64,000 nucleotides of DNA, taken from contig NZ_ACJX03000001.1 of assembly GCF_000160455.2 (NCBI RefSeq), positions 940,001-1,004,000 of the forward strand, written 5' to 3'. Both the position numbers and the translations under genes were made by a program. Shown one piece after another: positions 49,132-49,723 of the stretch. This DNA is from Acetomicrobium hydrogeniformans ATCC BAA-1850. Its GTDB lineage: Bacteria; Synergistota; Synergistia; Synergistales; Acetomicrobiaceae. Every line of letters begins with the position of its first letter. The stretch's first letter is position 1. The notes beneath the pieces are model-generated. The model was not told where the DNA came from. It saw only the letters and a list, made by a program, of their open reading frames with translations, and searched no databases.

Positions 49132-49170
49132 ACCGTAACATTAAATTGGTATATATCCTTAAAATAAAAT

Positions 49171-49205
49171 ATATGGGAATGTCTGAGACATTCCCATATA
49201 TTTTG
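49171..49205. terminator. Bidirectional terminator after the redox operon
   Basis: ATATGGGAATGTCT pairs with AGACATTCCCATAT around G, followed by ATTTTG. It ends the redox operon on the plus strand and can also end the small two-peptide unit read leftwards. Confidence 0.9.
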
Positions 49206-49255: not shown

Positions 49256-49414
49256 TTATGCCGTCAATGAGACCTGACTCATCTCAACGGGTTGCATATC
49301 TTTAATCCAATCGCCGTTCTCGTCTTTAAACCATGTGCCATTACTTCCAAATATTTCGGTAAAAAGAGTATCTTGTAATATAAACCAGTTACCGCTTTTA
49401 TCTTTCAACCACAT
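49256..49414 (-). CDS. 52-residue tryptophan-rich repeat peptide
   Basis: A short frame with a good ribosome-binding site (GGGAGG, 8 nt before ATG 49414). The peptide has two related units, MWLKDKSGNWFILQD (1-15) and GTWFKDENGDWIKDM (26-40), of form W-[LF]-K-D-x-x-G-[ND]-W, then an acidic/polar tail. It has four Trp, no Cys and no signal peptide. The unit recalls choline- or cell-wall-binding repeats, but this is only a resemblance. It is the second frame of a small transcript with its own promoter (49548-49576) and terminator. Function unknown. Confidence 0.7.
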   Translation of the reverse strand: MWLKDKSGNWFILQDTLFTEIFGSNGTWFKDENGDWIKDMQPVEMSQVSLTA

Positions 49415-49453
49415 ATTTAAAACCTCCCAACCAGGAAAATTTTTTGGTGAAAA

Positions 49454-49516
49454 TCAGCTCTTCCTTGTTGTGAGGCTTCGTCTTATTCGTCCTGGGCGTC
49501 GAAAGAAACCGTTCAT
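49454..49516 (-). CDS. 20-residue very basic peptide (leader or small protein)
   Basis: ATG 49516 is preceded by AAAGGGGGA at 9 nt and lies about 25 nt after the expected transcription start. It encodes MNGFFRRPGR then IRRSLTTRKS before TGA; eight of twenty residues are Arg or Lys. It could be a regulatory leader peptide (arginine-rich, so attenuation or stalling is possible) or a functional small protein. The 52-residue frame begins 39 nt after its stop. Confidence 0.55.
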   Translation of the reverse strand: MNGFFRRPGRIRRSLTTRKS

Positions 49517-49547
49517 ATCTGTGATCCCCCTTTTTGTCCTTGGAAGA

Positions 49548-49576
49548 TTTATATCACATCCGAAGAACATTGTCAA
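49548..49576 (-). promoter_or_regulatory. Near-consensus promoter of the small-peptide unit
   Basis: On the minus strand TTGACA (49571-49576), a 17-bp spacer and TATAAA (49548-49553), with TG one base before the -10 hexamer (extended -10). It is among the strongest-looking promoters in the window and drives nothing but the two tiny frames. Confidence 0.85.
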
Positions 49577-49723
49577 CTTAGGTTTACTAAAAATCTATAA
49601 ATCTTATATAAGTTTATGCAATCGTTTGCATTTCGGTCCCTTGCGCTTTATTAGCGGCCGAACGCTTTTTTTGCTATAATATATTTGGCTTAATAAAGTA
49701 GATACCCCGATGGAGGTCCTGTC

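Follow-up and report, generated by a model that had tools for sequence, protein, structure and literature searches.

Among studied systems, the closest analogue of the unit that we describe here is the speF leader (PMC6386406), the other being the R-L-R arrest of ErmDL (PMC8298421). In orf34/speFL of Salmonella and E. coli a short upstream open reading frame (uORF) carries conserved Arg codons (HIRRT in speFL), an RNA structure conceals the downstream ribosome-binding site (RBS), and a slowed ribosome alters the fold; our unit has such a leader, which we call P1, and we propose the same kind of control over the frame that follows it, P2. The speFL leader, however, is not homologous to P1, in which two Arg codons stand one codon apart, and what lies downstream of speFL is ornithine decarboxylase, with Rho and RNase G involved in its control (PMC6386406). 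In the ermD/ermC attenuators, as in the arrangement proposed here, the stall codons adjoin the arm that sequesters a second Shine-Dalgarno (SD) sequence and the motif is R-L-R, whereas in P1-P2 the downstream gene is neither a methyltransferase nor a known resistance gene and the identity of its codons is conserved (PMC8298421). In toiL-topAI, stalling on the uORF frees an occluded RBS, as we propose for P1-P2, but a toxin-antitoxin operon is controlled there and the two units have no sequence in common (PMC12121999). A regulator that we link to P2 resembles those of the PurR/LacI-family nucleotide regulons in its LacI-type HTH, its central-CG palindrome and its predicted control of pyrimidine genes, yet it is short and has no recognisable effector domain; the Synergistota lie outside the lineages covered by the study of LacI-family regulons (PMC4052901). 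In the papers that we searched, such a system had not been described in Synergistota.

Results

A two-frame transcription unit on the minus strand

The window, by which we mean the whole 64,000-nucleotide stretch of Acetomicrobium hydrogeniformans DNA that was analysed, contains the unit on its minus strand, with a hydrogenase-type redox operon on one side and DUF370-gyrB on the other. The near-consensus TTGACA-17-TATAAA promoter with an extended -10 described in the original prediction was verified at 49576-49548: the -35 hexamer TTGACA (49571..49576, minus strand) is separated by 17 nt from TATAAA, and the extended -10, TGA-TATAAA (49548..49553, minus strand), has a TG that ends one base 5' of TATAAA; TATAAA and the TG extension are found in many homologues. 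A stock promoter scanner missed this promoter for the sole reason that it requires the sixth base of the -10 to be T. An AAC-N4-GTT element (49575-49584, minus strand), also present at homologous P2 promoters, overlaps the -35. At 49617..49630 there is a LacI-type operator palindrome, TGCAAACGATTGCA, whose core, GCAANCGNTTGC, is also found at the pyrRBC promoter; this operator at 49617-49630 and the pyrimidine regulon formed no part of the original prediction.

Downstream of the promoter the predicted pair of small frames, each with its own RBS, and the terminator were all verified in the sequence. The arginine-rich P1, MNGFFRRPGRIRRSLTTRKS (49454..49516, minus strand), comprises 20 codons from the ATG at 49516 to the TGA at 49454, has GGGGGA about 8 nt 5' of its start, and is kept in four other Acetomicrobium genomes. 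The tryptophan-rich P2, MWLKDKSGNWFILQDTLFTEIFGSNGTWFKDENGDWIKDMQPVEMSQVSLTA (49256..49414, minus strand), comprises 52 codons from the ATG at 49414 to the TAA at 49256, with the RBS GGGAGG at 49423-49428. A terminator hairpin (49166..49204, minus strand) with an 18-bp stem, a U-rich end and a fold z-score of -5.4 follows, and is probably bidirectional. An Rfam scan of the window gave no match. Other Acetomicrobium genomes repeat the promoter, the two frames in the same order and the terminator, and this recurrence, together with that of P2 and of the leader motif across the order, indicates that the unit is more than a product of chance. Because both frames and their order are kept in related genomes with changes biased towards synonymous ones, the idea that the unit encodes a real small protein and a leader peptide is borne out.

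P2 represents a small-protein family of the Synergistales

By protein and profile searches, 39 of the 183 Synergistales genomes carry a P2 homologue. Family members are 50-70 residues long, and nearly all of them have MWxKDxxGNW[FY]...WxKxxxGxW; identity to P2 is 94-96% in close relatives and 56% in G004. When some 85,000 species genomes were scanned with the pattern, P2 matches came from Synergistales only (Acetomicrobium, Thermovirga and many Synergistaceae MAGs), apart from one unrelated match in Cytophagales, located within a 738-aa protein. In an alignment of 33 distinct sequences M1, W2, K4, D5 and W10 are invariant, and G8, N9, W28, K30, G34 and W36 nearly so. The two W-x-K-D-x-x-G-x-W units originally predicted are present in P2 itself, but family-wide the second is looser (W-x-K-[DNST]-x-x-G-x-W), and three members of family f10 have lost it. 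P2 is under purifying selection, with a summed pN/pS of 0.19 over 20 pairs that share branches.

No convincing family match for P2 was found in Pfam, NCBIfam, PHROG or the PDB. The Pfam entry SCNM1_acidic is matched by 19 of the 33 members, with P2 itself below the cut-off, and was set aside as a coincidence of the short W-x-K-D motif. An AlphaFold2 model depicts two beta-hairpins, one per repeat (pLDDT 67.5, pTM 0.27), and Foldseek with this low-confidence model returned matches at E > 1 only. By inspection P2 has no signal peptide. The tails of family members (LTA, LIA, VAL, IAL, LAS, LAG and LAV) may resemble ClpXP C-degrons. On the strength of its size, the absence of a signal peptide and the degron-like C-terminus, our best guess is that P2 would be a short-lived regulatory protein. 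The homologues include one viral contig and no plasmid homologue, and we rejected the notion that P2 is phage or plasmid cargo. On that 112-kb viral contig (IMGVR_UViG_3300033998_000095; L200 5001-5180) a 59-aa protein, MWYKDSNGNW...WIKDEDGNW, has the same start and two repeats as P2, and an apparent thyX gene is nearby.

The W-x-K-D-x-x-G-x-W unit resembles the hairpin of choline-binding repeats, and a link to cell-wall-binding repeats had been suggested at the outset. That P2 is a small cell-wall or choline-binding protein would fit the two modelled hairpins, which are like that of the choline-binding repeat PF01473, but we consider it very improbable: Choline_bind_1 is matched by 3 of the 33 members with a best E of 0.061, short of significance and of the curated cut-off, the repeats are spaced at 26 residues rather than about 20, there is no export signal, and no PDB structure matches.

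Leaders in six families share a pair of Arg codons

P1 reads MNGFF[RQ]RPGRIRR... in Acetomicrobium, and its comparison with G004 gave 4 synonymous and 2 nonsynonymous changes within 13 codons. Leaders with their own RBS are present in families f1, f6, f7, f8, f9 and f10, and common to the leaders of all six is a core, R-[ILMR]-R, which is encoded in the window by CGA ATA AGA (R-I-R; 49481..49489, minus strand), the proposed stall codons. The core lies near the end of the leader, or near its start in fused forms, and the rest of the leader differs. Thermovirga leaders, for example, end in ..YPEPGRIR and ..HPEPGRIR directly before the stop codon; the leaders of f9 (MLFKNLYTKRIR and MMLYKTFFSKRLRCFSEQNF), f7 (MGFVLSCSARLR) and f6 (MNPRFSADLSSRRR and MTPDLFPEPKSRRRRR) likewise run up to a stop, and those of f8 (MKFTTVPTSRIRRARR..) and part of f10 (MVLRIR.. 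and MLLRIR..) continue. The f8 leader and the f10 leaders named last are in frame with P2, whose own internal SD is kept. In L009, L013, L016, L017, L135-L137 and L139, where the leader is in frame, read-through would yield a P1-P2 fusion of 80-100 residues.

The codons of the core are mostly CGA-NNN-AGA, GC-rich genomes included, and CGA encodes the first of the two Arg residues in almost every leader (CGT in L067). In small gene samples, CGA makes up 4-17% of the Arg codons of the tested genomes and AGA 1-6% of those in GC-rich genomes, whose leaders use AGA nonetheless. That CGA and AGA are kept where they are rare indicates that selection acts on the codons (or on the letters of the RNA) in addition to the residues.

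Predicted sequestration of the P2 SD by an arm behind the Arg codons

In both the MFE and the centroid fold of the window RNA, an anti-SD arm just 3' of R-I-R (49459..49479, minus strand) pairs with a 3' arm that includes the RBS of P2 (49419..49439, minus strand), so that the SD is buried. Opening this SD costs 11.5 kcal/mol, compared with 4.5 ± 2.0 in shuffles; the z-score for the fold of the whole UTR is only -1.1. The cost of opening exceeds that of shuffles in L001, L067, L043, L047, L050, L007 and L045, and no excess over shuffles was detected in L004, L005, L009, L012, L135 or L139. In L003, a close relative, the fold differs. Across lineages the sequence of the hairpin arms varies while pairing is preserved. 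In the leaderless f3 genomes an SD hairpin is located at the 5' end of the mRNA, with compensatory arms (CCCGUG/CACGGG, CCCGUAA/UUACGGG, CCUCAUA/UAUGAGG, CCUCGUG/CACGAGG and CCUCCU/AGGAGG).

The anti-SD arm, defined by the first SD partner, begins 2-5 nt past the R-x-R codons in 7 of the 12 UTRs with a leader, where shuffles predict 0.54 (P about 1e-7, from shuffles that ignore shared ancestry, the seven UTRs coming from about four lineages). In f6, f7, f8 and L004 the arm is predicted 5' of these codons. Simulating a ribosome-sized block at or just past R-x-R lowered the SD opening cost in most members: from 10.5 to 5.8 to 2.2 kcal/mol in L001, from 12.3 to 5.0 in L067, from 11.5 to 2.6 in L043 and from 6.2 to 0.9 in L012. 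Since the anti-SD strand starts 2-5 nt past the Arg codons in 7 of 12 cases, the anatomy of the P1-P2 UTRs appears to be that of a translational attenuator.

P2 shares an operator with pyrimidine genes

Four copies of GCAANCGNTTGC occur in the 2.1-Mb genome, two in coding sequence and two intergenic, one of the latter 5' of P2 and the other on the -35 of pyrR-pyrB-pyrC. An overlap between this palindrome and the pyr promoter is seen in 16 examined genomes from many families. TGCAACCGSTTGCAT is present in 39 of 183 genomes, and a reversed control pattern in 0. A short LacI-family gene is found in 38 of the 39 genomes with TGCAACCGSTTGCAT (hypergeometric 2e-17, shared ancestry ignored) and in 33 of the 39 with P2 (Fisher 3e-10, shared ancestry ignored). 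Its product, of 267-300 aa, matches the LacI HTH PF00356 at E 2.8e-18 and 1.1e-16, and no Peripla_BP match, and hence no periplasmic-binding-protein-like effector domain, was found at E 1e-3. The LacI gene is directly 5' of P2 in f3, f6, f8 and f9 and 3-4 kb 5' in f10, and where it is beside P2 it often adjoins a uridine-kinase-like gene. In f9 a P2 gene lies between the operator and pyrR, and P2 copies in f4, f9 and f3-g21 carry the operator at their own promoter, either on it or adjacent to it; this type of palindrome is also found 5' of P2 in other families. Given the palindrome shared with the pyrRBC promoter and the short LacI often encoded beside P2, there is good indirect evidence that P2 is a member of the pyrimidine regulon in several lineages and that the LacI protein is a factor of that regulon. 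The protein may bind the P2 operator and respond to pyrimidines.

The association varies among families. P2 is kept in f2 (G005 and G014), which has neither LacI nor the leader, nor the operator at pyr or at P2, and f8 has LacI and the leader with no GCAANCGNTTGC at P2. Because f2 and f7 retain P2 in the absence of LacI, we rejected the idea that it is an obligatory partner of LacI. In Acetomicrobium and Thermovirga the operator is about 80-90 bp 5' of the start, off the promoter, so that simple steric repression is not obvious. Leaderless P2 copies immediately behind a pyrimidine operator were observed in L127-L129, L105 and L010; those of L127-L129 are second copies, and there the operator overlaps the -10. 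At pyrRBC itself, a LacI-type operator on the -35 is seen order-wide in Synergistales (L090, L093, L097, L098, L100, L101 and L109-L120), and in many of these genomes a leader ORF overlaps a terminator, as in pyrBI-like attenuation.

AA[CT]-N4-GTTGAC[AT] is found 5' of almost every P2 gene with a TTGAC[AT] promoter, and the AA[CT]-N4-GTT palindrome overlaps the -35 of P2 also in genomes without LacI. AAC-N4-GTT resembles half of a Gram-positive LexA box. P2 was nevertheless rejected as a gene of an SOS (LexA) regulon: the element is absent 5' of recA, and in 13 Synergistales genomes no LexA scored above the curated cut-off, the only candidates being proteins with a LexA-like peptidase domain. 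With the RecA profile no full-length recA was found in G000, the genome of the window (best E 1.4e-4), whereas 12 of 12 other genomes tested have one; for G000 this represents a gap, a split gene or a real absence.

Discussion

We consider it probable that the P1-P2 unit is a leader-peptide translational attenuator of P2, a clade-specific cytosolic protein. Transcription would start about 7 nt past TATAAA, and a hairpin in the mRNA would conceal the RBS of P2. When P1 is translated normally the ribosome would pass fast and the hairpin re-form, leaving P2 off; a ribosome slowed or stalled at R-I-R (CGA AUA AGA) would mask the anti-SD arm with its footprint, the SD would open, and P2 would be made. 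We infer both the stalling at R-I-R and its trigger, which would most likely be slow decoding of the Arg codons, caused by a shortage of arginine or Arg-tRNA or by a general slowing at CGA-NNN-AGA. In Acetomicrobium the unit lies behind a putative operator of the short LacI regulator, which may contribute a pyrimidine-linked transcriptional input. The model builds on what was computed, namely both frames and how far they are conserved, the SD hairpin found in many members, where the Arg codons lie with respect to the anti-SD arm, and the sharing and co-occurrence of the operator. Regulation of P2 by P1, as originally suggested, is thus the most likely reading of the conserved frames and order, the synonymous bias and the anti-SD arm right behind the leader's Arg codons.

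Other accounts of the leader differ in what they leave unexplained. The trigger could be unspecific, a variant of the attenuator model in which any slowing at CGA-NNN-AGA turns P2 on with no specific metabolite, as toiL, a uORF that senses many translation stresses (PMC12121999), would suggest by analogy. All sampled genomes use CGA as a minor codon, and in yeast the pairs CGA-CGA and CGA-AUA are inhibitory (PMC6301793), a result that may not transfer; neither the conserved hydrophobic middle residue nor the pyrimidine link is accounted for by such a general translation-stress switch, and we regard this variant as possible, if rather unlikely. P1 might instead be a constitutive translational-coupling ORF that keeps the SD of P2 open, with the real control at the promoter (LacI, AAC-N4-GTT). 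The good ribosome-binding sites on all leaders, the leaders in frame with P2 in f8 and part of f10, and the existence of leaderless forms all fit coupling, which nevertheless leaves unexplained why the R-x-R codons are conserved and placed right before the anti-SD arm; we hold it to be a tentative alternative that is more probably wrong.

A drug or ligand sensor of the RLR class, in which, as in ermDL, nascent R-(I/L/M)-R arrests only with a tunnel-binding molecule (macrolide- or ketolide-like) and the role of P2 is in protection or stress, seems to us distinctly unlikely. Between the two Arg residues every family has I, L or M, except f6 with R-R-R, and in part of f10 (MVLRIR, MLLRIR) the motif occupies residues 4-6, comparable to Arg6-Leu7-Arg8 of ErmDL (PMC8298421). 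No antibiotic-resistance gene lies downstream of P1, however, P2 matching no resistance family; P2 is tied to pyrimidine genes instead, and codons, not residues alone, are conserved in GC-rich genomes. Stalling of ErmDL at +X+ motifs is not seen without drug (PMC8298421), and for that reason we prefer codon slowing as the trigger.

Within the attenuator model, P2 could be a new protein messenger that couples the supply of arginine and of pyrimidines, both of which use carbamoyl phosphate: release of the operator would permit transcription, a stall at the Arg codons would permit translation, and P2 would then adjust an enzyme or the effector-less LacI. We offer this as a speculation that is more than likely to prove wrong, with a small chance of being right.

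Annotation usually misses proteins of the size of P2. Taken together, our comparisons indicate that P2 is a real, previously undescribed small-protein family, under a proposed leader-peptide switch whose mechanism the unit presents in a sharp and testable form. The analysis also reveals an order-wide candidate regulator of pyrimidine genes that lacks a normal effector domain. If the model is true, it would add a clade-restricted small-protein family with two layers of control, a LacI operator and an Arg-codon leader switch.
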